Source: Collimonas sp. PA-H2
GTDB taxonomy: Bacteria > Pseudomonadota > Gammaproteobacteria > Burkholderiales > Burkholderiaceae_D
Length of the DNA stretch: 64,000 nucleotides
Reading direction: 5' to 3'
NCBI RefSeq assembly: GCF_002564105.1
Contig: NZ_PDBX01000001.1
Coordinates: forward strand, 2,666,001 to 2,730,000
Part shown: one piece after another, positions 28,296-44,550 of the stretch
How the letters are laid out: every line of letters starts with the position of its first letter
Numbering within the stretch: the first letter of the stretch is position 1
Made by a program: the position numbers and the translations under genes
Notes under the pieces: generated by a model
The model's database searches: none
Told to the model about the DNA's origin: nothing
What the model saw: only the letters and a program-made list of their open reading frames with translations

Positions 28296-28445
28296 ATGGC
28301 GGAAATGACTGCGGAATTTGACGAGAACGATTTTCAATTTCTTCTGAAGCTGGGGGAAGCGGGAACTAAAGAGGTGGGTCGAAAGATGAAAAACTTGAAC
28401 GATGCCGTTCAGCGGGTCCTGGTCCGAGAGAGGGATATAGAATGA
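28296..28445 (+). CDS. Small coupled protein before the ketosynthase gene
   Basis: The ORF has 49 codons plus stop. Its TGA (28443-28445) overlaps the ATG of the next gene (28442) in an ATGA arrangement, which argues for translational coupling. The product is charged, amphipathic and helical (FDENDFQFLLKLGEAG, then MKNLNDAVQRVL). It is not recognised. The upstream ribosome site is weak, so confidence is limited. Confidence 0.45.
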   Translation: MAEMTAEFDENDFQFLLKLGEAGTKEVGRKMKNLNDAVQRVLVRERDIE

Positions 28446-29719
28446 TGCGCCGAGTGGTTGTGACGGGGATCGGCATTGTTTCCCCACTGGGTTGTGGCAC
28501 GGAACTGGCATGGCAGCGCCTAATTGACGGGCGTTCGGGACTTCGCCTGTTGGGGGACGAAATTGTCGGCGATCTTCCTGCTAAGGTAGGCGGGACCGTG
28601 CAAGATAGGACAACCGATCCCGAGGGCGGTTTCGATCCTGAAATCTCGATTCCGAGCAGAGAGTTGAAGAAGATGGATCGGTTCATCCAGATGGCGATGG
28701 TCGCCGCTGACGAGGCGCTGGCAGATGCCGGATGGGCTCCGCAAAACGACCATCAACGCGAGCGCACTGCGACCATCATTGCGTCCGGCATCGGCGGATT
28801 TCCCGGGCTGGCCAATGCGGTAAGGATAGGCGAAACGCGTGGTGTGCGGCGGCTGTCGCCTTTCACCATTCCGTACTTCCTATCGAATCTGGCGGCTGGC
28901 CAGATATCGATCAAGCATGGGTTCCGGGGGGCGCTCGGCTGCCCTGTGACCGCCTGCGCGGCTAGCGTACAGGCGATCGGTGATGCGATGCGCCTAATCC
29001 GGTCAGGAGAAGCGGATATTGTATTGGCAGGCGGCGCCGAAGCGGCTTTCGACAAAGTCAGCATTGGCGGGTTCTCGGCGGCGCGGGCTTTATCGACGGG
29101 CTTCAACGATGAGCCGACTCGCGCCTCGCGCCCATTTGACCGCGACCGTGACGGGTTTGTGATGGGTGAAGGCGCGGCAATGTTGGTGGTGGAAGCACTG
29201 GACCATGCTCTGGCACGCGGCGCCAGCCCGATCGCCGAAATTATTGGCTATGGAACCACCGCAGATGCCTATCACATGACGGCCGGCCCCGACGATGGAA
29301 ATGGCGCCATGCGGGCGATGAAGCTGGCCTTGGCGATGGGGGGAGTAACCCCAGATCGTGTCGGTTACGTCAACGCCCATGCTACCTCGACGCCGGTTGG
29401 CGATGCCGGAGAAATTGCGGCCTTTAAGACTGTTTTCGGAACAAAAACGGGGCCGGCTATTTCCTCTACCAAGTCTGCGACGGGGCATTTGCTGGGGGCG
29501 GCAGGCGCCCTCGAGGCTGCGTTTTCCGTTCTTGCTCTCAGAGATGGAGTGCTTCCTGGAACGCTCAATCTGGAGAATCCCGACGACTCGGCGACTGGCC
29601 TCGATCTGATAGGGCCGGCGGCGCGGCGCGTCCCAATTGAGATAGCGCTGTCCAACGGGTTCGGGTTCGGCGGAGTCAACGCCTCGGTGCTGTTTCAACG
29701 GTTCCCAGATGGACGGTAG
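28442..29719 (+). CDS. Beta-ketoacyl-ACP synthase II-type condensing enzyme
   Basis: The 425-residue protein has the complete KAS II layout. The nucleophilic cysteine is in VTACAAS (about residue 170) and the two histidines are in NAHATSTPVGD (about 310) and KSATGHLLGAAG (about 345). The C-terminal GFGFGGVNAS loop is present. A GAGAGGG ribosome site precedes tandem ATGs. It condenses malonyl-ACP with an acyl chain. Here it heads a biosynthetic island rather than a housekeeping fatty-acid cluster, so it may extend or supply the precursor of the product. Involvement is inferred from position; an IS scar separates it from the next gene. Confidence 0.9.
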   Translation: MMRRVVVTGIGIVSPLGCGTELAWQRLIDGRSGLRLLGDEIVGDLPAKVGGTVQDRTTDPEGGFDPEISIPSRELKKMDRFIQMAMVAADEALADAGWAPQNDHQRERTATIIASGIGGFPGLANAVRIGETRGVRRLSPFTIPYFLSNLAAGQISIKHGFRGALGCPVTACAASVQAIGDAMRLIRSGEADIVLAGGAEAAFDKVSIGGFSAARALSTGFNDEPTRASRPFDRDRDGFVMGEGAAMLVVEALDHALARGASPIAEIIGYGTTADAYHMTAGPDDGNGAMRAMKLALAMGGVTPDRVGYVNAHATSTPVGDAGEIAAFKTVFGTKTGPAISSTKSATGHLLGAAGALEAAFSVLALRDGVLPGTLNLENPDDSATGLDLIGPAARRVPIEIALSNGFGFGGVNASVLFQRFPDGR

Positions 29720-29939: not shown

Positions 29940-31325
29940 GTGTTAGACACTCTAATCGTTGGTGCCCGCTGCGCCGGCTCCACGCTCGCGATTCATCTGG
30001 CGCGCGCAGGCAAGCGCGTCCTCGCTATCGACGCGAACAATCTGCCATGCGACCAGCCGCTGTCCACCCATTTCATTTCGCCCCACGGCATGGCGTTGCT
30101 GGACGAGTTGGGCCTCGGCGATAAGGTGCGCCGGTTCGCACCGCCAGTGCCTAGCATGATGTTCGGCGCCGATGACGAAGTCGGTCGGATTGTTTATCCG
30201 GTTGGCGGGAGCTGCTCCTGCCCGCGTCGTATAGATCTCGATGCGCTCTTGCTAGACGAAGCGCGGGCCGCCGGGGCTGAGGTCCGTACTCGTACGAAAC
30301 TGGTCGCGCTGCTGCGCGACGGCGAGCGGGTCACCGGAGCCGTAGTCGAACACGCCGGGACACGCGAAGAGATCCGGGCGCGGATCGTGGTCGGCGCGGA
30401 TGGTCCCCACTCGACCACGGCGCAACTCGTAGGCGCCGAGGAGTACCATGGGTACGACTGCCCCCGCGCGATGTATTGGGCGTATTGGCCGAGACCAGCC
30501 TGGTTCGACGACGATCCGCGTTACCTGGGCGGGGCGATGAACTGCAATTTCGGCGACGACATCGTCATCATCTTTCCAACAAACCACGATCTCTTGCTCG
30601 TCGGGGTGGCATTCCCGAAGACCCAGCTACCGGAGTGGAAGGGGCGAACGCTACAGAAGCTGCAGGAGACGCTCCAGCGCAATCATTACACGGCGCCGCT
30701 GACCGTTGGACCGCCTGCGAGCAAGGTCCTGGGCGCATTGAACCTGCGCTTCTTCTTCCGTCAAGCGACGGGGCCGGGTTGGGCCCTGGTCGGCGACTCA
30801 GGCCTGTTCATGGATCCGTCCCCCGGCTTCGGGATCACCGACGCTCTGCGCGACGCCGGGGCGCTGGGGCGGGCGATCGTCGAGGGCGGGGACCAGGCGC
30901 TGGTGCGCTACTGGCGCCAGCGAGACGCGACCTCGATCGACCTCTTTGAATACTCCCGCAGCCGCGGCGCGCTCACCCACAACAACCCGCTCAGCCGTAT
31001 CCTGTACGGCAAGCTGGCGGCAGACCCGGTGCTGCAGGCACGCCTGTTCGCCGCCCTGAATCGCGAGCGCTCGCCGTTTGCCATATTCGACCTTCCCGAC
31101 GTCGTGAGCTGGGCGTCCCAGGCCGTTCAACGCGGCGAGCTGGGGGTGATCGAACCCTTGGAGGCCATGTCCCAGCGAGGCAAGGAGATCCGGGCCGAGA
31201 TAGCGTTGCGCCAGCACCTGGCCGAACAGGCCAACGCCACCCCGGCCCGGGCGTCCGGGTTCGAGCAATCCAAGTCGCTCGCGTCCGGCGGCGATCGCGC
31301 CCTTGGCGTAAGGGAAGCGGTATGA
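29940..31325 (+). CDS. FAD-dependent oxidoreductase/monooxygenase
   Basis: The 461-residue protein starts at a GTG eight bases after AAAAGGAA. The N-terminal dinucleotide fold has the variant VGARCAGSTLAIHLARAG; the second FAD motif is GDSGLFMDPSPGFGITDALRDAG near residue 285. This matches flavoprotein hydroxylases and geranylgeranyl-reductase-like enzymes of group A. No transmembrane segment is seen. It may hydroxylate, epoxidise or reduce the acyl product. It is coupled by ATGA to the small gene at 31322. Codon use is richer in CG than in the ketosynthase or the FAAL genes. Confidence 0.85.
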   Translation: MLDTLIVGARCAGSTLAIHLARAGKRVLAIDANNLPCDQPLSTHFISPHGMALLDELGLGDKVRRFAPPVPSMMFGADDEVGRIVYPVGGSCSCPRRIDLDALLLDEARAAGAEVRTRTKLVALLRDGERVTGAVVEHAGTREEIRARIVVGADGPHSTTAQLVGAEEYHGYDCPRAMYWAYWPRPAWFDDDPRYLGGAMNCNFGDDIVIIFPTNHDLLLVGVAFPKTQLPEWKGRTLQKLQETLQRNHYTAPLTVGPPASKVLGALNLRFFFRQATGPGWALVGDSGLFMDPSPGFGITDALRDAGALGRAIVEGGDQALVRYWRQRDATSIDLFEYSRSRGALTHNNPLSRILYGKLAADPVLQARLFAALNRERSPFAIFDLPDVVSWASQAVQRGELGVIEPLEAMSQRGKEIRAEIALRQHLAEQANATPARASGFEQSKSLASGGDRALGVREAV

Positions 31326-31480
31326 GCACAAAGAACGTCGACGTCGAGTCGTGCCGGACAATCGCGGAGGTCGTTGCGGCGGGCGCGCGCGTAGCGTTGG
31401 CCACGCAATTTCCAATCCTGGTGCTGCCCAGCCGGCACTCACGGGCCCTACGTTCAGTCAACCAAGGAGACAGGCTATGA
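31322..31480 (+). CDS. 52-residue protein coupled at both ends in the island
   Basis: The ATG at 31322 overlaps the preceding stop (ATGA) and follows AAGGGAAGC at the right distance. Its own TGA overlaps the next ATG at 31477, again as ATGA. The product begins MSTKNVDVESCRTIAEVVAA and has a hydrophobic centre (ARVALATQFPILVLP) and a basic tail. Double coupling plus a ribosome site is strong evidence that it is translated. No family is recognised; it might be a membrane-associated accessory subunit of the desaturase that follows, but this is speculative. Confidence 0.6.
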   Translation: MSTKNVDVESCRTIAEVVAAGARVALATQFPILVLPSRHSRALRSVNQGDRL

Positions 31481-32559
31481 CCATCGAAGCACCGTTGGAG
31501 GCTGGCGTCGCGTTTGCGCGCCTCAGGCTTCCAGAAAAATTTCATCGGATCAGTTCCTTCGCCACGGCACTCTACCTCGTGCACGCCCTGGCATTCTTCC
31601 TGGTTCCGGCCATGGTGGCCTTCGCCATCGTCGATATCCCGGCGTCGACGCCGGTGCGGATAGCTTGGGCACTCGTCTTGGGGATCATCGGTGGTCATGG
31701 AATGCACCTCTTGACCTTTGTCGGACACGAGGGAATGCACACGAACCTGCACCGGAACAAATACCTGAGCGCCGCGCTGGCGGTGCTCTGTTCTTCGCTG
31801 GTGCCGTTCTTCTTCATCGTGGGCTTCAGCATGACCCACTGGAAGCACCACCGCTATACCGGCCAGAACATCGATCCCGATGTTCAGATTTACTCGCAGT
31901 ACAGGAACTTCTGGTCGCGCTTCTTTCGCGCGCGCTCCGGGACCGTCCGGATTTACATGAAGAACGCCGTGCGCATGGGGCTGGGCCTACCTTGGCCGGA
32001 GGACACCAAGCTGCCGTTCTCCCAGCGCGAAATGCGCTGGATCACCCGGATCAACATCGCCCTGGGGCTATGCGCTGTAACGGTGTACGCGCTCATCTGG
32101 CATCGCTCGTTGTGGCTCGGCTTCACGGTGATGCTGGCTCCGTATTTCGGGCTGTACGTGTTCAGCGCCCTGCGTGCGTACATTGAGCACACGGGCACCG
32201 TACCGGGTCGTTACCACGACAGCCGCAGCTACACATCGCCCATCTACACGGCTCTTTTCTTCGGGAGTAACTTCCATCTCGAGCACCACCTGTATCCGGC
32301 CGTCCCGTGTTACCGGCTGCCCGCGCTGCACCGGTACCTGGCGTCGCAGGGACTGCTGGAAGCGACGGGCGCACAGGTTGAGCGGTCGTTTTTTGGCGCG
32401 CTGCGCTATACGACGGCGCGCTTCCAGTACCCCTGCGTCAATCTGCCGTCCGCGAGCGACGATTTCCTCGAGCGGATTGCCGACGGCCGTTTCGATCGCG
32501 AAGCGGATTTGGCGGGTACCCGGGCCGGCGACGCGATGGCCGCAGTTGCGCGCGAATAG
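31477..32559 (+). CDS. Membrane fatty acid desaturase/hydroxylase
   Basis: The ATG at 31477 follows AAGGAGA by six bases and gives 360 residues. Three histidine boxes are seen: HEGMHTNLH (about 84), HWKHHRY (about 121) and HLEHHLYP (about 268), which bind the di-iron centre in the FA_desaturase superfamily. At least four hydrophobic segments alternate with these boxes. Fatty-acid modification (desaturation or hydroxylation) at the membrane is the family role; the substrate is likely an acyl group of the island product. It is distinct from the three desaturases of the polyyne core. Confidence 0.88.
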   Translation: MTIEAPLEAGVAFARLRLPEKFHRISSFATALYLVHALAFFLVPAMVAFAIVDIPASTPVRIAWALVLGIIGGHGMHLLTFVGHEGMHTNLHRNKYLSAALAVLCSSLVPFFFIVGFSMTHWKHHRYTGQNIDPDVQIYSQYRNFWSRFFRARSGTVRIYMKNAVRMGLGLPWPEDTKLPFSQREMRWITRINIALGLCAVTVYALIWHRSLWLGFTVMLAPYFGLYVFSALRAYIEHTGTVPGRYHDSRSYTSPIYTALFFGSNFHLEHHLYPAVPCYRLPALHRYLASQGLLEATGAQVERSFFGALRYTTARFQYPCVNLPSASDDFLERIADGRFDREADLAGTRAGDAMAAVARE

Positions 32560-32649: not shown

Positions 32650-33654
32650 ATGTTTATCCAAAATACGTGGTACGCAGCAGCCCTTTCCGGAGAAGTCAAA
32701 AGGGAGCCTTTTGCCCGGACTATCCTGAACGAGAAGATCGTCATGTACCGCACCTCAACGAACCAGGTTGTCGCGCTTGAGGACCGCTGCGCCCATCGAC
32801 AGGTTCCGTTGTCCCGGGGACGCCTGATCGGAGACGAGCTTCAGTGCTGGTACCATGGTCTCCGCTACGACTGCTCGGGGGAGTGCGTCAGTATCCCCAG
32901 CCAAAGCACGATCCCGAAGGGCGCGCGCGTCCGTTCGTTCCCCGCCGTCGAGAAGTACGGCTTTGTCTGGCTGTGGCCCGGCGACCCGGAGAAGGCAGAC
33001 GAGGGGGCGATCCCGAACCATTGGGTCTGTTCGGCGCCCGAGCTCGCGGGGACGATGAGCTACTGCACCATCGCCTGCAACTACGTGTTCGGGATCGACA
33101 ACATCCTCGACATCTCGCACGCTGCCTTCGTTCACGCGAAGACACTGGGCTCACTCGACATCGTCGAGACTCCGCCTGAAATCGTGATCAACGACGACGA
33201 AGTCCGCGTGCGCCGCTATATGCGCCGCGAGAAGACGCCTCCGCTGTACAGCCGGATCCTGAAACTCGACTACATCGACCGCTTCCAGGAGGTCCTCTAC
33301 TGGCCCGTCGGCAACACGCGGGTCGAGACGAGAGCTCACGCGTGCGACGATTCCAGCGGCAAGGTATTTCACGTCTATACGACGACGATCTTCACTCCCG
33401 CCACCGATGTCACGAGCCACGTCTTCGTGGGCATGCATCGCGATTTCGACGTTGACAACCAGATGTTTACTGAGTTCACAGCGAAAGAAGTGTTCTCAAC
33501 TGTCATGGAGGACAAAGACGTCGCTGAGAGCCTTCAGGCGAACTGGAGCCCCACGGCGCCGATGATCGACATCCACCTCGATCGGCCGGCGTTCGCCGCG
33601 CGCCGGATATTGGAGCGAATGGGAGCAAACGCCTCCATTCGGACGGGCGTATGA
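32650..33654 (+). CDS. Rieske non-heme iron oxygenase, alpha-subunit type
   Basis: This 334-residue protein starts MFIQNTWYAAAL after AAGGAAA. The Rieske [2Fe-2S] ligands are CAH near residue 48 and CWYH near 66. The mononuclear iron site is DISHAAFVH near 154-162. The layout is like vanillate O-demethylase and related oxygenases, which hydroxylate or demethylate; here it probably oxidises the acyl product. No dedicated reductase is next to it. A second, internally deleted copy of the same gene family lies at 42726, whose ends align to the two ends of this protein. Confidence 0.9.
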   Translation: MFIQNTWYAAALSGEVKREPFARTILNEKIVMYRTSTNQVVALEDRCAHRQVPLSRGRLIGDELQCWYHGLRYDCSGECVSIPSQSTIPKGARVRSFPAVEKYGFVWLWPGDPEKADEGAIPNHWVCSAPELAGTMSYCTIACNYVFGIDNILDISHAAFVHAKTLGSLDIVETPPEIVINDDEVRVRRYMRREKTPPLYSRILKLDYIDRFQEVLYWPVGNTRVETRAHACDDSSGKVFHVYTTTIFTPATDVTSHVFVGMHRDFDVDNQMFTEFTAKEVFSTVMEDKDVAESLQANWSPTAPMIDIHLDRPAFAARRILERMGANASIRTGV

Positions 33655-33701
33655 CGCACGACACGACGGCGAGCCCATCATTCGCAGAGAAGGAAATGAC
33701 G

Positions 33702-34526
33702 ATGAACCATCAAAAACGCGCCGGTCTCTATATCGATGAGTTGCTGCGCGAACTCGAGACGTCGGCGCAGGACGAAGTCAGTTTGCGGCACCCCATGGCG
33801 TTCGGAGAAGTCTTCGGCCGCGGCCGCGTGGAAGAGCTCGCGGCTGCCGCCGAGAGCATCTTTTCCGAGGTCGAGCCGGATCACACATGGAGCGGCGCCG
33901 ATATTGGCGGGCGCGAGTGGCATGGGCACTTCCAGGGCCGCCGCATTCGTGGGGTGACGGTGGCGCGGCGCTTCGACAAGCACGTACAGGTCGACATCTT
34001 CCTCGCCTCGTTCCCCGTGCCGGTTCGGCAGGCGCTGCACGACGCGTGCCGGGACCTCATCGACGCCGACGCATGGTTGCTCCCCCCGGGGATCGATACC
34101 GCGTTGCCGCCCATACCTGCCGACGAAGTGCTGGACGCCAAATTGCAGTTCGGCCTCGCCGCCGATGTGCTCTTTACCAGCCCCGTGGCCTGCAAGCCGG
34201 TTCGTGGCGTTGCCGACGTCGAACGACTGTGCGGCCATTCGATCGTCGTCTACGGCGGGCGCGCGAGCGGGCCGCGCCTGACGTCGGGCTCCACGACGCT
34301 GAGCATCTGGACGGGGCAGGTCGCCGGGCTGCCGCTGGAAGTGGCGAACGTCATCCACTGGGAGGATGCGCAGCATGTGAAGGTCATGGCAATGGCGATG
34401 CGCCCTTGGCCCGTCGTCGCACTGTTTCAAGCGCGCATGCAAGCGCGAACGCTCTCGTTTCTCGATGCGTCGTACTTCGAGTCGGATGACGGGACGACCC
34501 CGCTCCAGCTTGATGAGGAAGTATAA
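33702..34526 (+). CDS. Unknown protein of the biosynthetic island
   Basis: I do not recognise this soluble protein of 274 residues. The ATG at 33702 follows AGAAGGAA well; an earlier ATG at 33651 overlaps the Rieske gene stop in an ATGA fashion and is an alternative. The halves have similar patterns (strand-rich segments such as RRIRGVTVARRFDKHVQVDIFL and TLSIWTGQVAGLPLEVANVIHWED, each followed by a helix), which may mean two repeats of a small alpha-beta barrel domain. It lies between the oxygenase and the exporter, so a cyclase, isomerase or carrier role is possible. Confidence 0.6.
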   Translation: MNHQKRAGLYIDELLRELETSAQDEVSLRHPMAFGEVFGRGRVEELAAAAESIFSEVEPDHTWSGADIGGREWHGHFQGRRIRGVTVARRFDKHVQVDIFLASFPVPVRQALHDACRDLIDADAWLLPPGIDTALPPIPADEVLDAKLQFGLAADVLFTSPVACKPVRGVADVERLCGHSIVVYGGRASGPRLTSGSTTLSIWTGQVAGLPLEVANVIHWEDAQHVKVMAMAMRPWPVVALFQARMQARTLSFLDASYFESDDGTTPLQLDEEV

Positions 34527-34530
34527 GTAT

Positions 34531-35955
34531 ATGAACGCTCCCCTCGCCCCGGCTGTGCAGGCACAGGCGCAGCCGAGCTCGATTTCGCCGTGGCCGGTTT
34601 TTTGGATCGCGAGTGTGGCGGTCTTCCTCGTCTCGATCGACGTCACCGTGCTCTATGCGGCGTTTCCCGCGTTGCAACGGGCGTTTCCCGAGGCCGGCTC
34701 GGCGGACCTGTCGTGGGTCCTGAACGCGTACACGCTGGTCTTTGCCGCGTTGCTTGTGCCGGCCGGCCGCTTGGCCGACCTGCGCGGACGCAAGCGCATG
34801 TTCTTGCTCGGACTTGCCATATTCCTGGGCGGATCCCTCGGCTGCGGTCTGGCCGGCCATGTCGCGACTCTGATCGCGATGCGCGCCGCGCAGGGAGCGG
34901 GCGCGGCGCTACTGCTGCCGGCATCGCTGTCGATCTTGCTGGCGGCGTTCCCCCCCAGCAAACGCGCGATCGCCGTGAGCTCGTGGGGTGCAGTCAGCGG
35001 GCTTGCAGGTGCGCTGGGGCCGAGCCTCGGCTCTTTCCTGGTCGATCACTTCGGCTGGCCGTGGGCCTTCTTTCTCAACCTGCCGCTTGGAATCATCATG
35101 CTATGGCGTGGATGGCGCATGCTCGACGAATCGCGCGATCCTGAGCGCGGCGCGCCGATCGACGTCATGGGCGTCGCCCTGCTGATCCTCGGCGTGGGCG
35201 CGATCACCTTCGGCCTGGTACAGTCCGAGGCGGTCGGCTGGACCTCCCCGATGGTGACCCTGTCGATCGCCGGTGGGCTGGCGACGCTGATGGCGTTCGT
35301 CGCCTGGGCGCGCACGGTGCGCGCCCCGGCCATCGATCTCTCGCTGTTCCAGGACCGGACATACTGCTACATCAATCTTGCGTCGCTGTGCTTCGCGATC
35401 GGCTTCGCCATGATGTTTTTCCAGACGTTCCTGTTCACTACAGGTGTCTGGTCGTACTCGCTGACGCGCGCAGGGCTGGCCGGCAGCCCTGGACCGTTGC
35501 TCGTCGTTCCCACGGCGATCGTATGCGGACGGTTCGCGGCGCGCGCCGGGCACAAGCTGCTGCTGGTGAGCGGGAGCCTGATCTTCACGGCGGGGAGCAT
35601 CTGGTTCGCGCTGGTGCCCGGGGTCAATCCCGACTATGTGCACGCGTGGCTGCCGGGGGCCCTACTCACCGGACTGGGTGTAGGCATGGTCATGCCTTCG
35701 CTGTCGGCGGCGGCCGTCGCGCATCTGGCACCGGCGCGGTTCGGCGTGGGCTCCGCCGTCAACCAGGCGGTACGCCAGATGGGATCGGTGCTCGGGGTGG
35801 CGCTCACGGTCGCCATAACCGGCCATGCGATGCTGAACCTCGCCGCATTTCACACCCTCTGTTACCTGCAGATCGCGTTCGGTTTGGCCACCGCAATCCT
35901 GTGCGCACCGGTCGACACGCGATCACGAGCGCCTGCGCCTGTGGCGGCGCATTGA
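34531..35955 (+). CDS. MFS drug/product exporter (DHA2-like)
   Basis: The 474-residue protein has about 13-14 hydrophobic segments from WPVFWIASVAVFLVSIDVTVLY onward. The motif RLADLRGRKRMF in the second loop is the MFS signature, and the first-helix D (SIDVTVLY) is typical of DHA2 transporters such as EmrB/QacA. The start at 34531 lies four bases after the previous stop with an AGGAA site. Placement next to the polyyne genes suggests export of the product and self-protection. Confidence 0.88.
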   Translation: MNAPLAPAVQAQAQPSSISPWPVFWIASVAVFLVSIDVTVLYAAFPALQRAFPEAGSADLSWVLNAYTLVFAALLVPAGRLADLRGRKRMFLLGLAIFLGGSLGCGLAGHVATLIAMRAAQGAGAALLLPASLSILLAAFPPSKRAIAVSSWGAVSGLAGALGPSLGSFLVDHFGWPWAFFLNLPLGIIMLWRGWRMLDESRDPERGAPIDVMGVALLILGVGAITFGLVQSEAVGWTSPMVTLSIAGGLATLMAFVAWARTVRAPAIDLSLFQDRTYCYINLASLCFAIGFAMMFFQTFLFTTGVWSYSLTRAGLAGSPGPLLVVPTAIVCGRFAARAGHKLLLVSGSLIFTAGSIWFALVPGVNPDYVHAWLPGALLTGLGVGMVMPSLSAAAVAHLAPARFGVGSAVNQAVRQMGSVLGVALTVAITGHAMLNLAAFHTLCYLQIAFGLATAILCAPVDTRSRAPAPVAAH

Positions 35956-36107
35956 TCTGATGCGCCGTCGCTTGGCGCTTATCGTTGAATAGCGTTTTGA
36001 GAAGTATTGATATTTCTGTAGAGATCAGCAATTAGCCAAACGAGCGCAACGCCGGTCTGCCCTCGGCAGCGTGGCGTTTTCCCGGTAATCAAATAACGGA
36101 GTATCGA
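35956..36107. promoter_or_regulatory. Probable promoter region of the polyyne core
   Basis: The 152-base gap between exporter and FAAL holds a possible sigma-70 promoter (TTGAGA at 35997, TAGAGA at 36019, 16-base spacing) and an imperfect GCGCC/GGCGC stem right after the exporter stop. Neither is strong. Confidence 0.3.
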
Positions 36108-37967
36108 ATGACATCCAGCTTGAGCATGAGCGAAGCGGTAATCTTGGTTCCGGAACACGCCGCGCAGGATATCGACATGGACGCGATCCTGCGCCGGCGC
36201 GCCGCGGCAACGCCGGACGAGGTCGCTCTGCGTTTCCTGAAAAACGGTGAAGACGACATCGTTGACTTGACCTATCGTCAGCTCGACTTGCGCGCCGCTC
36301 GCCTGGCCCGCCAGCTCAAACAGCAGTTGACGCCTGGAGCCCGGGTGCTGCTGGTGCTGGAACCTGGCCTGAACTATGTCACGGCGCTGTTCGCCATTTT
36401 CAAGGCGGGCGCCACGGCGGTGCCGTCGTTTCCGCCGGTCGGAACCCGCGCCATCTCACGCTTCGCCAGCATCTGCAACGATTGCAATGCGCAGCTGGTG
36501 ATCGCTGAAGGCAGCTTGCAGGCGTCGGTCGACCGCCTCAACGCTACGCTCTCCGCCGAAGGAAATTTTCCTGAATGGCTGTTTGTCGGCAGCGATTTTT
36601 TCGAAGCACGAGATGTGCAGCCAATACCCGCGCATGCAGACGACGAAGGGCGCAACGGCGGACAATTCCCGGCGCTGCTGCAATACACATCCGGCTCCAC
36701 CGGCAATCCCAAGGGTGTGGTGCTTTCCGCCGCCAACCTGATCAGCAACAGCCGCGTGCTCGACATCAGGCTGGGATCGGCAGAAAAACATATCGGCTTC
36801 ACCTGGCTGCCGCCCTACCATGACATGGGCTTGATGGGGGCGCTGCTGTTGTCGGTGTACAGCGGATTCACGTTGGTGGTCATGACGCCCGCTCATTTCG
36901 TGCAGCGTCCGCTGCGCTGGCTGAAAGGCTTGTCGACGCACCGGGTCACCACCTCGGTGGCGCCCAATTTCGCGCTCGACCTTTGCGTCGATACCATTAC
37001 CGATGAAGAAATCGCCGAACTCGACCTGAGCAGGCTGAAGATGCTGTTTTGCGGCGCCGAGCCGGTGCGGCAAGCCACGCTTGACCGTTTTTCGGAAAAA
37101 TTCAGAGCGGCCGGATTCTCCAGCGCGGCGTTTGTCCCGTGCTACGGCCTGGCCGAAGCGACCCTGTTCATTTCCGGAAAATCGGATCGCGACGCGACAC
37201 CGAAGACGCTGCTGCTGGACCATGAATCTCTGGCCTGCGGCCAGGCTAGGCCGGCCACCGCAGATGCACCTGCCACGGCGGTAATCAGCTGCGGCACGGT
37301 AGCCAGCGGACATGTGATGGCCATCGTCGATCCCGACACCCGGAAGCAGTTGCCGGCCGGCTCGGTCGGCGAGCTGTGGTTCAAGGGCGCCAGCGTGGCG
37401 CAAGCCTATCTCAACCAGCCCGAAGCCAGCACCGAAATATTCCGTGCCTTCATTGCAGGCGATTCGCAGGACGGCCCCTACTTGCGCACCGGCGACCTCG
37501 GTTTCATGCTCGACGACGAACTGTATATCACCGGCCGCATCAAGGACGTCATCATTTTCGCCGGCCGCAATCTCTATCCGCAAGACATCGAAGCCGCGGC
37601 CCAGGCCAGCCACCCGGCGATCCGCACCAACGGCGTCGCGGCGTTCTCGGTGACGCGGGACGATACGGAACAGCTGGTGGTGGTGGCCGAGATCCTGCGC
37701 TCAGCCAAGTTGAACGGCGAAGACCTGGAAAACGTCGAAGACGCGATTGCCGCCGCCATCACCCGCAGCCACGGCGTGGCGCCGCACACCGTGCACCTGG
37801 CGCCGGTGTCGACGATTCCATTGACCACCAGCGGCAAAGTGCGCCGCAGCGCTTGCCGCGACGCCTTCAATGGCGGCGCGCTGGCGTACGCCAAGGCTCG
37901 TCCAATGCCATCGGCGACAGCAGCGATAGTCGAAACCGACAGCACCACACTTTTCCAACAGGGGTAA
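36108..37967 (+). CDS. Fatty acyl-AMP ligase (FAAL) of polyyne biosynthesis
   Basis: This 619-residue adenylate-forming enzyme has the ATP motif YTSGSTGNPKG (about 192-202), YGLAEATLF (about 345), TGDLGF (about 461) and GRIKDVIIFAGRNLYPQDIE (about 475-495). The overall size and FAAL-like spacing match enzymes that activate a fatty acid and pass it to a carrier protein rather than to CoA. It is the first gene of the conserved core and follows an ACGGAG ribosome site. It should load the starter acid onto the ACP at 39963. Confidence 0.93.
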   Translation: MTSSLSMSEAVILVPEHAAQDIDMDAILRRRAAATPDEVALRFLKNGEDDIVDLTYRQLDLRAARLARQLKQQLTPGARVLLVLEPGLNYVTALFAIFKAGATAVPSFPPVGTRAISRFASICNDCNAQLVIAEGSLQASVDRLNATLSAEGNFPEWLFVGSDFFEARDVQPIPAHADDEGRNGGQFPALLQYTSGSTGNPKGVVLSAANLISNSRVLDIRLGSAEKHIGFTWLPPYHDMGLMGALLLSVYSGFTLVVMTPAHFVQRPLRWLKGLSTHRVTTSVAPNFALDLCVDTITDEEIAELDLSRLKMLFCGAEPVRQATLDRFSEKFRAAGFSSAAFVPCYGLAEATLFISGKSDRDATPKTLLLDHESLACGQARPATADAPATAVISCGTVASGHVMAIVDPDTRKQLPAGSVGELWFKGASVAQAYLNQPEASTEIFRAFIAGDSQDGPYLRTGDLGFMLDDELYITGRIKDVIIFAGRNLYPQDIEAAAQASHPAIRTNGVAAFSVTRDDTEQLVVVAEILRSAKLNGEDLENVEDAIAAAITRSHGVAPHTVHLAPVSTIPLTTSGKVRRSACRDAFNGGALAYAKARPMPSATAAIVETDSTTLFQQG

Positions 37968-37970
37968 GCA

Positions 37971-38918
37971 GTGACCAATACCAAAACTCCGGCGGCGCCA
38001 GCGCCTGGCGAGAAAGTACAAGTGCTCAGGGATGGCGACACCAAGGCGCGCAGGCTGGCTTACCTGACGGTGCTGACGCCTGCCATCGGTTTTATCGCCG
38101 CGCTCTGGTATTCGATCCAGTTCGGCGTCAAGCAGCAAGACATGGTGCTGCTCGGCGTCATGTATTTCCTGACTTCGTTCGGCGTCGAAGGCGGATTGCA
38201 CCGCTTCTTTTCGCATCGTGCTTTCAAGGCCGGACCGGTGGTGACTGCTGTCATCGGCATCCTCGGCTGCATGGCGGCGCAAGGCCCCATCCTGTTCTGG
38301 GCGGCGACGCACCGCATGCACCACGTCTTCACCGACCAGGACGGCGACCCGCATTCGCCGCGGGTGCTGTCGCCTGGCCTGCGCGGACGCATCAAGGCCT
38401 TGTGGCATGGCCATGTGGGCTGGCTGTTTACCGTCAAGCGCAGCAACTGGAGCACCTACGTGCCAGACCTGTTCGGCAGCAAGCTGGTGCTGTTCGTCAA
38501 CCAGCACTACCTGATCTGGGTATTCCTCGGCCTGGCGATACCGACCGCGATCGGCGCCGCGCTGAGCGGCATCGAAGGTGCGGTCGGCGGCCTGCTGTGG
38601 GGCGGCCTGGCCCGGATCTTCCTGCTGGACCAGGTGACCTGGGCGGTCAATTCGATCGGCCATACCTTCGGAAAACGACCCAACCAGACCAGGGACACCA
38701 GCGGCAACATCGGCTGGCTGGCGCTGGTGTCCGCCGGTGGCGGCTGGCACAACAACCATCACGCCAATCCGGCGCTGGCGCACAACGATTTTCATTTCTG
38801 GCAAATCGATACCACGGCCTGGGTGATCCGCTTGCTGGGCCTGGTCGGCCTGGCATGGGATATCCGGCAACGCCAGAGCACAGATCCGCTAGACCAGAAA
38901 CTTTTCAATAACGATTAA
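37971..38918 (+). CDS. Acyl-lipid/ACP desaturase 1 of the polyyne core
   Basis: The 315-residue membrane desaturase starts at a GTG three bases after the FAAL stop. Histidine boxes are HRFFSH (about 77), HRMHH (about 114) and HNNHH (about 260), the delta-9 acyl desaturase pattern. Four hydrophobic stretches are present. In polyyne pathways such desaturases act on ACP-bound chains, and some act as acetylenases. Which bond this one makes cannot be told from sequence. Neighbours are tightly packed, supporting one operon. Confidence 0.92.
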   Translation: MTNTKTPAAPAPGEKVQVLRDGDTKARRLAYLTVLTPAIGFIAALWYSIQFGVKQQDMVLLGVMYFLTSFGVEGGLHRFFSHRAFKAGPVVTAVIGILGCMAAQGPILFWAATHRMHHVFTDQDGDPHSPRVLSPGLRGRIKALWHGHVGWLFTVKRSNWSTYVPDLFGSKLVLFVNQHYLIWVFLGLAIPTAIGAALSGIEGAVGGLLWGGLARIFLLDQVTWAVNSIGHTFGKRPNQTRDTSGNIGWLALVSAGGGWHNNHHANPALAHNDFHFWQIDTTAWVIRLLGLVGLAWDIRQRQSTDPLDQKLFNND

Positions 38919-38933
38919 CATCGGGAAAATGCC

Positions 38934-39908
38934 ATGACTACGCAAACCAATGTCTTACCTCCCAAGCCGGCGAGCGCCGCCGGTCCTGCACTGAGGCCGG
39001 GCGTCGCGCCGCTGACCGGCGCCGGCGCCACCATCAAGCAGGTCACCGCGCTGGTGGTCATGCTGGTGCCGCTGGCCGGATTCGCGGTGGCGCTGCAGCG
39101 CGCGCTGGAAGGGCGCATGTCGACCATCGACGTGGTGCTGTTCGGCGTCTTTTATTTCCTCCACATGGGTGGCATCACGATGGGCTTCCATCGCTACCTG
39201 GCCCACAAGACCTTCAGCACCTCGCCCTTTTTCGAGGGACTGCTGCTGATCAGCGGCTCGATGGCGGCCCAGGGGCCGATCATGTTCTGGGTCACCACCC
39301 ATCGCCGTCACCACACCTACAGCGACCAGCACGGCGATCCGCATTCGCCCAACCTGCACGGCTCGGGGCTGCTCGGCCGCCTGCGCGGGATCTGGTATGC
39401 GCATATGCCGTGGATGCTGGCCAAGGATGTGTCGGGCTGGAATTTCTTTGCGCCGGATATCCTCGCCAACCGCAAGCTGTTCTTCTACCACCGTACCTAC
39501 GGCCTCTGGATCGTGCTCGGCCTGGCGCTTCCGGCGGTCATCGGCGGCGCGATTGGCGGCAGCTGGGATGCGGCCTTCAGCGGTTTCCTGTTCGGCGGAC
39601 TGGCGCGGATTTTCCTGGCCAACCAGGCTGCCTGGTGCGTCGGCTCGGTGTGCCACATGATCGGCGGCAAACCGTTCAAGACCGACGACAACAGCGCCAA
39701 CAACTGGACCGTCGCCATCCTCACCTTCGGCGAAGGCTTGCAGAACAACCACCATGCATTCCCGGGATCGTACCGCCACGGCGTGAAATGGTGGGAGCCG
39801 GACCTGAGCGGCTGGCTGCTGGCCGGGCTGGGAAAAATCGGCGTGGTCTGGAACCTGCGCTCGCCTGACGAAAAAACGATAGCAAAGATGCGGATGCGCG
39901 CCCGCTGA
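38934..39908 (+). CDS. Acyl-lipid/ACP desaturase 2 of the polyyne core
   Basis: The protein has 324 residues with boxes HRYLAH (about 85), HRRHH (about 122) and NNHHAF (about 270). It is a paralogue of the preceding desaturase and shares its membrane topology. The N-terminal 30 residues are Ala/Pro-rich and probably cytoplasmic. It is 15 bases downstream of desaturase 1. The pair likely produces successive double or triple bonds on the ACP-bound chain. Confidence 0.92.
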   Translation: MTTQTNVLPPKPASAAGPALRPGVAPLTGAGATIKQVTALVVMLVPLAGFAVALQRALEGRMSTIDVVLFGVFYFLHMGGITMGFHRYLAHKTFSTSPFFEGLLLISGSMAAQGPIMFWVTTHRRHHTYSDQHGDPHSPNLHGSGLLGRLRGIWYAHMPWMLAKDVSGWNFFAPDILANRKLFFYHRTYGLWIVLGLALPAVIGGAIGGSWDAAFSGFLFGGLARIFLANQAAWCVGSVCHMIGGKPFKTDDNSANNWTVAILTFGEGLQNNHHAFPGSYRHGVKWWEPDLSGWLLAGLGKIGVVWNLRSPDEKTIAKMRMRAR

Positions 39909-39962
39909 TCGCTGCAAAATTCAAACACACACATTTGATTCACATTCACCCCAGGAGAAATC

Positions 39963-40295
39963 ATGTCTCAAGAAAACAAGTCGGGCGGCCTGTTCGGCTT
40001 CTTCCGCAAAGGCGGAGAGGAAGTTGAAAGCAATGAGCCGTTAAGCGAAGAAGTGATCCGCCAGTGGCTGGTCAAGCGCTTGGCCAAGCAGGTAAAAGTC
40101 GATCCCAGCGCGATCGACACCGCCAAGAAGTTCGAGCTGTACGGCCTCGATTCGATTGTCGCGGTGCGGGTTTCCGGCGACCTGGAAAAACTGGTCGAGC
40201 AGCGCCTGTCGCCGGCGCTGCTGTTCGAACACCCAAGCATCGACGAGCTGAGCGCTCACCTGGCCACGGAACTCGGGCTCAACGCCATCGCATAA
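39963..40295 (+). CDS. Acyl carrier protein of the polyyne core
   Basis: This 110-residue protein is longer than a housekeeping ACP, with a charged N-terminal extension (residues 1-30, GGLFGFFRKGGEEVESN). The phosphopantetheine site is LYGLDSIVAVRV with the serine near residue 63. An AGGAGAA ribosome site precedes the ATG. It should hold the growing chain between the ligase and the desaturases. A dedicated ACP between desaturase genes is a hallmark of bacterial polyyne clusters. Confidence 0.93.
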   Translation: MSQENKSGGLFGFFRKGGEEVESNEPLSEEVIRQWLVKRLAKQVKVDPSAIDTAKKFELYGLDSIVAVRVSGDLEKLVEQRLSPALLFEHPSIDELSAHLATELGLNAIA

Positions 40296-40309
40296 TCTGG
40301 GAGAAATCA

Positions 40310-41410
40310 ATGCCGTCCGCAAATAGTTACCCTTCATCGCCGGGGCCCGAATTCGAGGCGTTCCTGGACAAGAGCAAGACGCTGGAAGGCGCCCGTCTGG
40401 CCGAAGCGATTCCTAAATCGTATTTCGAACCGCAAGCCTGGCGCGGCCTGGCCGGCTTTTTCATCAGCTATGCGCTGTATATCGGCGCCATTGTCGGCGT
40501 CGCCTATGCGCCGCACTGGGGATTCTATATTCCCCTGTACATCGTCGCCGGGCTGGGCGGATGGGGCCTGCATTGCATCGCGCACGACTGCGGACACAAT
40601 TCGTTCTCGCGCAACAAGAAGCTCAACATAGCCATCGGCCACCTGTCGCTGCTGCCGCTGCTGTATCCGTTCTATTCATGGAAGCACGTGCATAACCTGC
40701 ATCACTTCCATACCAACAACCTGGAACTCGATACCGACTGGCGGCCGATTCCGCGCGACATGTACAAGCGTATGTCGTTCGGCCAGCGCTTTGTTTATAT
40801 GGGCACCAGGACCTGGCTGTTCTGGGCCGGCACCATCAATTACTGGATCGTGTCGGGCTTTCGTCCGGGATTTTTCCCCAAGAAGGACATGCGCAGCGAT
40901 GTCAAACGCTCGATCGCGTTCGTGGTGCTGGCTTCGATTGTGTATTTCTCCGCGCTCATCTACTTTACCGGCATAGCAGGTTTCTTCTTGCTGTTTTTTG
41001 CGCCGTGGATTGCAATCCACACCTGGTTCAGCGTGACCACGCTGATGCACCACACCGCGGCCGACATCCCGTTCCTGACCTCGGAACACTGGACGCCGAA
41101 CGCTAGCCGCATGCTGGTCACCACCGACTACCGCTATCCGAAATGGCTGCTGTTCCTGACCCACAACATCTCTATCCATACCGCCCACCACGTGGCGCCG
41201 GTGGTGCCGTTCTATAACCTGCAAAAAGCGCAGACGGCATTGAAGCAGGCTTATCCGGGCATGATCAGGGAAAAGAACTTCAGCTTCGGCGACCTGCTGT
41301 GGGTCGTAAAGAACTGCCATTTCTACGATCTCGATTCGGGCTATTACAAGGATTCGGCGGAGCAGCGCGCCGTGGTCAACGGCGGCGCCACCTCGGTCCC
41401 CAATACCTGA
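40310..41410 (+). CDS. Desaturase 3 (delta-12/acetylenase type) of the polyyne core
   Basis: The ATG at 40310 gives 366 residues; an in-frame start at 40064 overlaps the ACP and was rejected. Boxes are HDCGHNSF (about 92), HNLHHFH (about 127) and HTAHH (about 290). This is the delta-12/FAD2 pattern, different from the two delta-9-type enzymes before it. FAD2 relatives include plant acetylenases, so formation of a triple bond is plausible. It is 14 bases after the ACP stop. Confidence 0.92.
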   Translation: MPSANSYPSSPGPEFEAFLDKSKTLEGARLAEAIPKSYFEPQAWRGLAGFFISYALYIGAIVGVAYAPHWGFYIPLYIVAGLGGWGLHCIAHDCGHNSFSRNKKLNIAIGHLSLLPLLYPFYSWKHVHNLHHFHTNNLELDTDWRPIPRDMYKRMSFGQRFVYMGTRTWLFWAGTINYWIVSGFRPGFFPKKDMRSDVKRSIAFVVLASIVYFSALIYFTGIAGFFLLFFAPWIAIHTWFSVTTLMHHTAADIPFLTSEHWTPNASRMLVTTDYRYPKWLLFLTHNISIHTAHHVAPVVPFYNLQKAQTALKQAYPGMIREKNFSFGDLLWVVKNCHFYDLDSGYYKDSAEQRAVVNGGATSVPNT

Positions 41411-41453
41411 TCCATCATCAACCCGTGCCGGACCAACCGCAGGACCTGACGAT

Positions 41454-42398
41454 ATGACTGACATCACTTCACCATCGCCGCCGCTGTCGCAACAGCCGGC
41501 GGCGGCGCCGGCCCTCAGCATCGGCGCCAGCCTGGCAAAGGCAGGTTACCAGCTGGGCGGCCTGCTGGCGCCCAGGCTGGCCGGCCGGATTGCGGCCGAC
41601 GCCTTCGGCCGCTCGCGCTCAAAAGGCGGTCGCACCTTGTTCAGGATGCCGCTTGGAGCGCAAACCTTCGAGATCGCCGGCAATGAAGACGTGCGCCACG
41701 GCTATCTCTGGAAAAACCAGGGTCCTACCGTGCTCTTGGTGCACGGCTGGGGTTCCGACAGCAGCAGCATGATCGGCTTCGTCAAGCCGCTGCTGGCGCT
41801 CGGTTTCCAGGTAGCCTCGTTCGATGCGCCTGCGCATGGCGAATCGGCTGGCAACAAGACCACGATGACGCGCTTTGTCAAAGCGGTCGGCGCGGCCATC
41901 AAGTCACTCGACAATGTGCAGATCGTTGTCGGCCACTCGCTCGGTTCAATTGCCTCGGTGGCCGCCATCGCCCACGCCAGCCCAAGGCACGCAGAAGCCG
42001 TCAAGCGCATGGTGCTGATCGCCGCCCCGATATCGCTTTCCACCGTGCTGGAGCGCTGGTCGACCAACCAGCGCCAGCAGCTGCCGCCGGCCGTGATCGG
42101 CAAGATCTACGACCGCCTGCACGTGCAGAACGGCGTCCCGGTCAGCCACTGGGATATCAGCGTGCTGGGCGCGGCCATGGATGTGCCGGTACTTGTGGTC
42201 CACGACGAACATGATCCGGTGGTGCCCCTGACCGAGGCCCAAAGGCTGATGCGTAGCCTGAAAAACGTGCGCCTGGAACAAACCTCCGGCCTCGGGCACA
42301 GCCGGATACTGTCGGCCGCCCCGGTCAAGGAACTGATCACTCGCTTCATCAGCGAATCCCATCTGACCCCAACTAGCCTGGAACCTAGCAATGACTGA
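41454..42398 (+). CDS. Alpha/beta hydrolase (probable thioesterase) of the polyyne core
   Basis: The 314-residue protein has the oxyanion motif VHGWGSDSSS (about 97), nucleophile VGHSLG (about 160), acid DEHDPVVP (about 251) and histidine GLGHSRI (about 280). It is soluble with no signal peptide. In polyyne clusters a hydrolase at this place releases the chain from the ACP. It overlaps the rubredoxin gene by eight bases, so the two are coupled. Confidence 0.88.
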   Translation: MTDITSPSPPLSQQPAAAPALSIGASLAKAGYQLGGLLAPRLAGRIAADAFGRSRSKGGRTLFRMPLGAQTFEIAGNEDVRHGYLWKNQGPTVLLVHGWGSDSSSMIGFVKPLLALGFQVASFDAPAHGESAGNKTTMTRFVKAVGAAIKSLDNVQIVVGHSLGSIASVAAIAHASPRHAEAVKRMVLIAAPISLSTVLERWSTNQRQQLPPAVIGKIYDRLHVQNGVPVSHWDISVLGAAMDVPVLVVHDEHDPVVPLTEAQRLMRSLKNVRLEQTSGLGHSRILSAAPVKELITRFISESHLTPTSLEPSND

Positions 42399-42576
42399 AA
42401 CAGAAACTGAATTCAAGACACTGATGTGCCTGGTGTGCGGCTGGATCTATTCGGAAAAGAATGGCGCCCCCAGCGAAGGCCTGGCGCCGGGCACCCGCTG
42501 GGACGATATCCCGGACACCTGGACCTGCCCTGAGTGCGGCGTAAAGAAAGAGGATTTCACCATGGTGGAATTTTAA
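42391..42576 (+). CDS. Rubredoxin
   Basis: This 61-residue protein has the two iron-ligating pairs CLVCG (about 12-16) and CPECG (about 46-50), with the aromatic core WIYSEKNG and DDIPDTWTCP of rubredoxin. It is the last gene of the core and probably feeds electrons to the di-iron desaturases. The reductase is not in the window. Confidence 0.95.
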   Translation: MTETETEFKTLMCLVCGWIYSEKNGAPSEGLAPGTRWDDIPDTWTCPECGVKKEDFTMVEF

Positions 42577-42725: not shown

Positions 42726-43190
42726 ATGTTTATTCATAATGCAAGGTACGTCGCGGCGCTGGGCATCTTTCCCCTGGCAACCGACGCCACCTGCCATCTC
42801 TGGGCCGGCCACTACCGCGATTTCGGCATCGACAACCAGCAACTGCCGGACGCGATCGCCGAGGAGCTGCGCACTACCATCGCGGCAGCCGTCTATATCT
42901 GCCAGCAGGGGCAGGAAAACCGTGACAACGACGCCGTGTTCATCCACCTGGCGGCGGACCAAGCCTCGATTGCCGCGCGCCAGATCCCCGACGTGCCGCT
43001 GCAAAAAGGAAACGCAGGCACTATTGCCCACTCTTGTGAAATCGGCGTCATGGCGCCGGTTGCATGCAGCAGGACCAGACCGCAAACCACAATACCAACA
43101 GGAGAACGTCATCGTGAGCACCCCCACCGAACAGTTAGCGCCTACCCCCGAATCCGTCGCCAAGGCGTTCCTCACGCCGCGAACCGATGA
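42726..43190 (+). pseudogene. Rieske oxygenase remnant with in-frame internal deletion
   Basis: The ORF starts MFIHNARYVAALG, matching MFIQNTWYAAALSG of the Rieske oxygenase at 32650. It then jumps to IFPLATDATCHLWAGHYRDF and GIDNQQLPDAIAEEL, matching residues about 247 onward (IFTPATDVTSHVFVGMHRDF, DVDNQMFTEFTAKEV), and continues to IHLAADQASIAARQI, the counterpart of IHLDRPAFAARRI. Roughly 233 residues, including the Rieske cluster and the iron site, are missing without a frame break. The ribosome site (GGAAG) remains and the frame runs 77 bases into the next gene. It cannot be an oxygenase; it may still be translated. Confidence 0.8.
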
Positions 43191-43896
43191 GCGGACCCCG
43201 GTCACGGCCGGTTTCGAGGGCGCGAGCCGGGTAGAGACCTATGGCCCGAGCGGCAAGCTGGTGTCCTGGCAGGCCGGCCGGGGGCCGACAGTATTGCTGG
43301 TCCACGGCTGGGAAGGCCGCTCCAGCGACATGGCGCCGTTCATTCCGCCGCTGCTTGAGGCCGGCTACCGCGTGGTGCTGGTCGATCTGCCGGCGCATGG
43401 CGAGTCCGAAGGAACGACCTCGTCGATCCCGGCTTGCGCCGCCGCGCTGCTGAAACTCCAGGACTTGATCGGTCCGGTGTATGCTGCAATCGCGCACTCG
43501 GTCGGCTGTGCTCTTACTGTGGAAGCGGTGCGGCACGGCCTGCAGGTCGAGCGCCTGGTGCTGATCGCGCCGCCGGCGCGCTACTTCGATTACGCCGTCG
43601 GCTTCGGCGTCCAGGCTGGCCTGGACCGGCGCCAGGTGGCGGCAATGATCGCCCTGCTGCAGGAGCAGGGCGTCGATGTCGCCGATGTTAATACGCCGCG
43701 AGCCGCCGCAAGCCTCAAACAACCGCTGCTGATCCTGCATTCGAACGACGACCGCGTGGTGCCGGTATCGCTTGGTGTGGAAATCGCCGACGCCTGGCAA
43801 GGCGCCAAGCTGCTCCGCTTCGACGGCCTGGGCCATCGCCGGATTCTGAAGGCGCCCGAAGTGATCGATGCCGCGCGCGCTTTCCTGACTACCTGA
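43114..43896 (+). CDS. Second alpha/beta hydrolase at the cluster edge
   Basis: The GTG at 43114 follows GGAGAACG and gives 260 residues. The oxyanion motif VHGWEGRSSD (about 63), a nucleophile elbow IAHSVG (about 128), acid HSNDDRVVP (about 209) and GLGHRRIL (about 239) mark an alpha/beta hydrolase related in layout to the 41454 product. It may be a second release or editing thioesterase. Its start lies inside the Rieske remnant, so the intact original order was probably oxygenase followed by hydrolase. Confidence 0.85.
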   Translation: MSTPTEQLAPTPESVAKAFLTPRTDERTPVTAGFEGASRVETYGPSGKLVSWQAGRGPTVLLVHGWEGRSSDMAPFIPPLLEAGYRVVLVDLPAHGESEGTTSSIPACAAALLKLQDLIGPVYAAIAHSVGCALTVEAVRHGLQVERLVLIAPPARYFDYAVGFGVQAGLDRRQVAAMIALLQEQGVDVADVNTPRAAASLKQPLLILHSNDDRVVPVSLGVEIADAWQGAKLLRFDGLGHRRILKAPEVIDAARAFLTT

Positions 43897-43954: not shown

Positions 43955-44455
43955 TCACCTCGACAGCAGAGGATGGTCGCGGTACTGCTTGGGCGACATG
44001 TTGAGCCAGCGCTTGCAGGCCAGGAACAGTGCACTCTGGCCGGTGAAACCAAGCAGGAAAATCATCTCTGAGACCAGCAGCTGATGCTGTCCCAGGTACT
44101 GTTGCGCCAGGCTGTACCGCGCATGCTCCACCAGCGCCTGGAAACTGGGCCATTGAAAGGTGCGTTCGCTGATGCATAGCGCGCTGGCGATGTCGGCCCT
44201 TAACGGCGCGCCGTCCGCCAGCCGGCCGAGACGCTCGCTTCTTCGGCGAGCTCGATGGCGGTGTCGTCGGTAACCAGGCGCAGGTAGCAGATAAGCGGCG
44301 CCAGGCTGGCGTACAGGTTTTCGCTGGACATCATGGCGTAGCCGGCCACGTCGAAGATGGCGGGCGTGGTCACCTCGGGAACCGACAGCCCGATCGCCGG
44401 GTTATTCGAGCGCAAGGCGGCGACTTTCCACAAGGCACGCAGCTTTCCCGTTGGA
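43955..44455 (-). pseudogene. Decayed AraC-family regulator
   Basis: On the minus strand the frame near 44455-44240 reads ALWKVAALRSNNPAIGLS, GYAMMSSENLYASLAPL and YLRLVTDDTAIELAEE, the start of an Arabinose_bd-type sensor domain. A frame change near 44220 leads to RLADGAPLRADIASALCISE then FTGQSALFLACKRWLNMSPK, the AraC DNA-binding domain. About 110 residues between them and the N-terminus are lost. It is a dead regulator next to the cluster end and may once have controlled it. Confidence 0.75.
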
Positions 44456-44460
44456 TAACT

Positions 44461-44550
44461 GGCGTTACCAAGGTGTTCAGCTATTTCGATGCGGACGCCG
44501 TCAAGCAAGGCCTGACCAGCGGCATTTACCTGGCGTCGCTGGACCGATAA
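44461..44550 (+). pseudogene. Unidentified 3' gene fragment
   Basis: One frame reads GVTKVFSYFDADAVKQGL and ends IYLASLDR before TAA, with no start of its own. It looks like the C-terminal end of a lost protein. The parent family was not identified. Confidence 0.3.

Follow-up and report, generated by a model that had tools for sequence, protein, structure and literature searches.

Polyynes are unstable antifungal chains of carbon triple bonds and are among the main antifungal weapons of the mycophagous Collimonas soil bacteria. The clusters for caryoynencin (cay), cepacin, protegencin/protegenin and massilin have in common a core of a fatty acyl-AMP ligase (FAAL), desaturases, an acyl carrier protein (ACP), a hydrolase and a rubredoxin, and FAAL, desaturase, desaturase, ACP, desaturase, hydrolase, rubredoxin is the core order of clusters of the caryoynencin/collimonin type. 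The collimonin cluster is the "cluster K" of Collimonas fungivorans Ter331, which may be genome G028 of our sample; the present locus probably has the entire block 28098-43968 in common with it. Here, we analysed such a gene set in a stretch of 64,000 nucleotides (hereafter the window) from Collimonas sp. PA-H2 (contig NZ_PDBX01000001.1, positions 2,666,001 to 2,730,000), whose genome (G000) comprises 5.95 Mb in two contigs. Very probably, the locus functions as a bacterial polyyne cluster of the collimonin/caryoynencin type, which carries a putative decorating and exporting cassette and was received from another Collimonas lineage. This kind of gene set is already known, and the present copy is a further example from Collimonas, with finishing enzymes that seem to have been exchanged.

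The seven-gene core and its distribution

The core occupies positions 36108-42576 on the forward strand and consists of FAAL, two delta-9-type desaturases, ACP, a third desaturase of delta-12 type, an alpha/beta hydrolase and a rubredoxin, separated in that order by 3, 15, 54, 14, 43 and -8 bases (Table 1; the delta labels denote sequence types, not regiochemistry). The original prediction, which described seven genes in this order and in one direction, with gaps below 60 bases and overlaps, is thus borne out, and its reading of the order as the conserved polyyne core is supported by relatives of the core genes that share the seven-gene order in Collimonas and on Streptomyces plasmids. Indeed, a FAAL with a stand-alone ACP and three membrane desaturases are present, the hydrolase and rubredoxin genes form the 3' end, and the order is the one given above for the published clusters. 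None of the collections searched yielded a named record for a published polyyne cluster. The reading as a polyyne core is well supported, and the product, as predicted from the genes, is probably collimonin-like.

The closest relatives of FAAL among solved structures are FAALs or FAAL-like proteins (for example 7r7e at 5.9e-131, FadD32 and FadD28), and its nearest named relatives come from a C. fungivorans metagenome-assembled genome (93% amino acid identity) and Collimonas sp. OK412 (92%). The earlier claim that all catalytic motifs are visible holds for FAAL (YTSGSTG, RTGDLG and SGK), desaturase 1 (HX4H, HX2HH and HNNHH), desaturase 3 (HX3H, HX2HH and HX2HH), ACP (LDS), the hydrolase (GHSLG) and rubredoxin (CxxC twice), the exception being the third histidine box of desaturase 2, which reads QNNHH, with glutamine for the first histidine. 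The rubredoxin gene is below the length limit of the open reading frame (ORF) lists, and its NCBIfam match (6.8e-20, 70.8 bits) lies under the family cut-off of 90. The QNNHH box recurs unchanged in Streptomyces and in all four of the other Collimonas clusters and thus does not mark this copy as defective. A cluster in genome G324 likewise has glutamine at this place in two of its three desaturases, while the remaining tabulated desaturases have histidine there. This glutamine may be a mark of the triple-bond former, and it offers a concrete candidate residue for the conversion of double into triple bonds.

The ratio of nonsynonymous to synonymous divergence (dN/dS), calculated against four other Collimonas genomes, is 0.02-0.15 across the seven core genes, as expected from purifying selection, which argues against a chance row of genes. 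Our genus sample comprised 15 Collimonas genomes (G000 and 14 others), five of which carry the core (G000, G028, G153, G175 and G217); the seven proteins of the other four carriers are 91-99% identical in amino acids to those of the window. The core is uninterrupted on a single stretch in G028, G153 and G175, and divided in G217 between two contigs that have 127 identical bases in common, one with FAAL (L008, from which the identity of that protein was taken) and one with the remainder (L048). Outside Collimonas, the seven-gene order was seen only on Streptomyces plasmids (42-66% amino acid identity; full annotation read for one record); one search returned seven Streptomyces records. Relatives of desaturase 2 at E <= 1e-30 occur in 23 of 399 Burkholderiales genomes. 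The seven-gene order was absent around them in the three non-Collimonas genomes read (G324, G564 and G525), as it was in seven non-Collimonas loci from the family searches (G016, G066, G144, G227, G177, G282 and G288) and in Collimonas genome G186; in G227, G177, G282 and G288, the desaturase stands alone. Among 369 genomes of the class, only the window's own genome and G1020 passed 1e-50 for desaturase 2, an uninformative absence since known Burkholderia and Pseudomonas producers are evidently outside that sample.

Following the published scheme, FAAL would activate a fatty acid as acyl-AMP and load it onto ACP, and the three membrane desaturases would act repeatedly on the ACP-bound chain, forming first double and then triple bonds with electrons supplied by rubredoxin. 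The core hydrolase, likely the releasing thioesterase, would then set free the acid.

Front ends ahead of FAAL and decay of Rieske B

Six genes precede the core in the window and are hereafter called the cassette. It joins directly ahead of FAAL in two of the five carriers, G000 and G028, and the similarity between the window and G175 starts at 36039, that is, 69 bases 5' of FAAL, which places the joint of cassette and core. G028 shares this layout and the order of all 14 genes (84-99% amino acid identity), and is collinear with the window over 28098-43968; the similarity is confined to that interval, which shows that the two clusters occupy different chromosomal places. Cassette and core are nevertheless adjacent in both genomes. 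G153, G175 and G217 have the core at another site and lack the six genes. In G153 and G175, it adjoins ABC-ATPase, protease and adhesin genes (named by eye). An SDR and a Rieske gene stand ahead of FAAL in G175 and on L008 of G217, with an additional GMC oxidoreductase in G175, and G153 has neither. The Rieske gene of G175, at the same place ahead of FAAL, is 55% identical to Rieske oxygenase A of the cassette; this alternative front end (GMC oxidoreductase, SDR and third Rieske gene) lies at L046:11251-15189. In addition to its live cluster, G028 keeps a dead remnant of a core (L058:9541-10914) at the site of the live cluster in G153 and G175, containing both ends of FAAL, desaturase 1 frameshifted in a G run and the start of desaturase 2. 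Therefore, a live cluster and the ruin of a differently arranged one coexist in G028. At the G153/G175 site, the window's genome shows no trace of a cluster.

The cassette ketosynthase matches PDB 4ddo, a Burkholderia FabF2, very closely (787 bits) and is only 45% identical to the genome's own FabF, hence not a copy of it; FabF proteins at 64-65% identity are common on plasmids. The FAD (flavin adenine dinucleotide) enzyme also matches the NCBIfam geranylgeranyl reductase superfamily under the cut-off (3.7e-25). Its relatives (34-35% identity) include one on a Rhodococcus plasmid, about 7 kb 3' of a FAAL/desaturase/ACP set, and one on a Streptomyces plasmid, next to a gene for a ring-hydroxylating oxygenase, neighbourhoods that would fit an oxidation role. 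On Rhodococcus opacus plasmid NZ_CP110470.1 (L182:10000-31293), the set is unannotated and is followed by the cassette-like FAD enzyme and a large ORF with a ketosynthase (KS) domain. The membrane enzyme encoded by gene 3 is nearer to hydroxylases (GntB and CrtR) than to lipid desaturases in NCBIfam, with all matches under the cut-offs. Rieske oxygenase A has the motifs of both iron sites, and its relatives outside Collimonas reach no more than 41% identity over the full length, or 44% in one partial match (399 Burkholderiales, E <= 1e-40); the three non-Collimonas surroundings read contained no polyyne genes. The orphan protein occurs in two of the 399 Burkholderiales genomes, G000 and G028. 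Its C-terminal half is perhaps SnoaL/NTF2-like (3mso, E 0.23), and structure prediction from a two-sequence alignment gave no usable fold (mean pLDDT 33). A relative (30% in the alignment) lies directly 3' of a FAAL-polyketide synthase (PKS) gene in Burkholderia stagnalis; that gene is a FAAL-ACP-KS multidomain ORF of 2824 amino acids (NZ_CP156686.1, L125:144-9345).

From these families, the cassette would decorate and export the product, with Rieske oxygenase A, the hydroxylase-like desaturase and the FAD enzyme as candidate oxygenases and the MFS protein as pump. The role of the extra FabF is a guess, either self-protection or chain supply.

A second Rieske gene, Rieske B, lies behind rubredoxin. 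It is full-length in all three carriers without the cassette (G153, G175 and G217) and destroyed in both carriers with it. The window keeps the initial codons and the last quarter, most of the gene being deleted, and three short pieces remain in G028; the window lacks some of them, and one window piece is missing from G028. The deletions are thus non-nested and arose separately. The association of Rieske B loss with the cassette (two of two versus none of three; Fisher p = 0.1, calculated by hand) is suggestive, short of proof. In the forms without the cassette, Rieske B may act as the oxygenase, and it would have decayed where the cassette arrived. The second hydrolase (91-93% amino acid identity, dN/dS 0.09-0.12) follows, and the AraC-type regulator behind it is intact in G153 and G175.

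A tentative generalization, which we consider possible but short of likely, is that Collimonas polyyne clusters consist of a fixed seven-gene engine and an exchangeable oxygenation cassette ahead of FAAL, with three front ends (none; GMC/SDR/Rieske C; and KS/FAD/desaturase-like/Rieske A/orphan/MFS), the arrival of the last having removed the need for Rieske B, which was consequently lost on two separate occasions. The block would move between lineages, the oxygenated polyynes would differ predictably from strain to strain, and the Gln-box desaturase would form the triple bonds.

Table 1. Genes and gene remnants of the polyyne locus and its left border, in window coordinates.
Feature	Position	Strand	Evidence
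Transposase fragments (two), DDE, IS5/IS4-like	27265..27720	+	Pfam DDE_Tnp_1 3.9e-4 (20.7 bits, under cut-off 23) and 1.8e-5 (25 bits, over); IS5 label by eye
Cassette 1, FabF-type ketosynthase	28442..29719	+	Cys-His-His present; Pfam ketoacyl-synt 1.4e-54; NCBIfam PRK06333 669 bits (cut-off 525)
Cassette 2, FAD-dependent oxidoreductase/monooxygenase	29940..31325	+	Pfam FAD_binding_3 7.5e-27
Cassette 3, membrane enzyme of FA_desaturase fold	31477..32559	+	Pfam 1e-30; three His boxes
Cassette 4, Rieske oxygenase A (VanA/dicamba demethylase type)	32650..33654	+	Pfam Rieske 2.5e-22, VanA_C 4.1e-33; PDB 3gb4 5.6e-50
Cassette 5, orphan protein	33651..34526	+	No Pfam or NCBIfam match
Cassette 6, MFS drug exporter (DHA2/EmrB type)	34531..35955	+	Pfam MFS_1 1.1e-42; NCBIfam efflux_EmrB 6e-65, just under cut-off
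Core FAAL	36108..37967	+	Pfam AMP-binding 7.6e-68
Core desaturase 1	37971..38918	+	GTG start; Pfam FA_desaturase 3.7e-20; third box HNNHH
Core desaturase 2	38934..39908	+	Pfam FA_desaturase 1e-18; third box QNNHH
Core ACP	39963..40295	+	Pfam PP-binding 7.8e-14
Core desaturase 3 (delta-12 type)	40310..41410	+	Pfam FA_desaturase 1.7e-33
Core alpha/beta hydrolase (GHSLG)	41454..42398	+	Pfam Abhydrolase_1 1.1e-18
Core rubredoxin	42391..42576	+	Two CxxC; read directly off the sequence and translated
Rieske oxygenase B remnant	42726..43060	+	Alignment with intact G153, G175 and G217 copies and differently deleted G028 copy
Second alpha/beta hydrolase (AHSVG)	43114..43896	+	Pfam Abhydrolase_1 2.1e-15; intact in all five clusters
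AraC-type regulator remnant	43968..44514	-	Arabinose_bd fragment 9.6e-14; matches G153 in two pieces, about 370 bases missing

Horizontal origin of the cluster

The synonymous divergence (dS) indicates that the window's cluster was acquired horizontally, from another Collimonas lineage. Between G000 and the OK412-like genome G175, the median dS of the core and second hydrolase is 0.177 (0.115-0.290, n=8), compared with 0.552 (0.371-0.769, n=15) for the background of genes around fabF (p 4.1e-6, with linked genes treated as independent and one 20-kb stretch of conserved genes as background). The core of G000 is also below the background against G028, G153 and G217 (0.318, 0.339 and 0.302 versus 0.538, 0.564 and 0.544). 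In comparisons that leave out G000, the core matches the background for G028-G175 (0.310/0.310) and G028-G153 (0.162/0.137, p 0.27), and does so more poorly for G028-G217 (0.171/0.116, p 0.005). The cassette genes of G000 and G028 have dS values of 0.228-0.351, mostly under the background range of 0.314-0.800.

The nearest genomes among the seven relatives compared, G186 (background dS 0.179) and G117 (0.274), both lack the core. Collinearity between G186 and the window runs as far as 26958, with a final piece at 27208-27296, and resumes at 50412; in between, G186 has other genes. The left border of the acquired stretch, the joint at about 27.3 kb, is marked by the two transposase fragments. 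The core points to G175 and the cassette to G028, the donor being none of the sampled genomes; moreover, positions 36.6-37.8 kb of FAAL are closer to G028 than the rest of that gene. These differing affinities show that recombination took part. The island has a G+C content of 60-67%, against 52-58% in the near flanks, and composition alone shows nothing because a large adhesin gene at 17-24 kb is equally high (61-67%). This gene (16881-24182) encodes a YadA-type trimeric autotransporter adhesin of 2433 amino acids, whose repeat region is unlike that of the nearest relative, G186. Scans of the window for tRNA genes and Rfam families gave no matches. At 45330-47100, the window has two YceI-like genes and one cytochrome b561-like gene (named by eye), which are represented in the other 14 Collimonas genomes by nothing longer than pieces of about 115 bases. 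The earlier remark that the island around the core is less usual is likewise borne out.

Weighing the readings and comparison with known systems

Several observations weigh against reading the whole locus as one decorated and transferred polyyne cluster. The cassette genes, although likewise under purifying selection, are less constrained than the core (dN/dS 0.09-0.27 versus 0.02-0.15). The MFS gene is followed, ahead of FAAL, by a terminator-like stem (35962-35978), and a promoter scan found promoter-like sites at chance level (3 versus 4.1 expected); therefore, cassette and core need not be transcribed together. In 28098-44465, no reductase that could serve rubredoxin or Rieske oxygenase A was recognised. 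To these are added the narrow dS background and the five genomes behind the link between cassette and Rieske B; the AraC gene was lost in the window too, so the decay of Rieske B may result from the move and not from replacement. Part of this evidence would suit a core that makes polyynes while the six upstream genes form a separate, co-travelling pathway unrelated to their decoration: these genes are more widely spaced than the core (gaps of 220, 151 and 90 bases), 152 bases and the stem separate the MFS gene from FAAL, and three of the five Collimonas clusters lack the cassette. Nevertheless, the cassette adjoins the core at two chromosomal places with a joint some 69 bases 5' of FAAL, the same place is taken in G175 and G217 by a related Rieske gene, Rieske B is broken exactly where the cassette occurs, and 28098-36039 contains no separate ACP for the cassette, which makes such a co-traveller unlikely in our view.

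The other alternatives concern the core itself. FAAL, desaturase and ACP are also common to JamABC-like cassettes, and sets of FAAL and ACP with a single desaturase stand beside PKS genes on Rhodococcus and Pseudonocardia plasmids, so the genes could in principle supply a terminal alkyne or polyunsaturated fatty acyl starter to another pathway. However, in JamABC-type cassettes a single desaturase feeds a PKS or nonribosomal peptide synthetase (NRPS), and here three desaturases, a hydrolase and a rubredoxin lie in polyyne order, and the genes read in 24000-50000 include neither a PKS nor an NRPS, the sole KS being a stand-alone FabF-type protein; we therefore rejected this candidate as highly improbable. 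Ordinary membrane-lipid desaturases in a chance row, for which one could cite the frequency of FA_desaturase genes in this genome (seven matches), are hardly credible, given the tight conserved unit with FAAL, ACP and rubredoxin and the conserved glutamine of desaturase 2. A polyyne cluster with a finishing cassette is thus our preferred reading, and the window's genome would have received the block from another Collimonas lineage.

Caryoynencin hydroxylation uses a P450. In contrast, no P450 was recognised among the genes described at this locus, where the Rieske and associated enzymes are the candidate oxygenases. The plasmids of Streptomyces goshikiensis and Streptomyces sp. Mg1 (NZ_CP115937.1 and others) share the core order and the QNNHH box, whereas the neighbours differ, with P450, p-aminobenzoate, DAHP-synthase and butyrolactone-regulator genes on the linear plasmid NZ_CP115937.1 (L041). 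G028 differs from the window in chromosomal place and in its Rieske B deletion. The window's core is closer to the cluster of Collimonas sp. OK412 (NZ_FOLC01000006.1, L009) than to that of G028; the OK412 cluster matches it in core order and second hydrolase (92-99% amino acid identity), and differs in lacking the cassette, in having a GMC oxidoreductase, an SDR and another Rieske gene ahead of the core, in its intact Rieske B and AraC genes, and in its chromosomal site. The five related genomes thus provide a natural experiment, with the same engine, three front ends and one Rieske gene lost twice, in which an antifungal pathway has moved between Collimonas lineages. A specialist may not expect this transfer, nor that front ends are exchanged while Rieske B is lost repeatedly. 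The comparison points to the genes for assigning each oxygenation step and, with its different front end, OK412 should make a different product.

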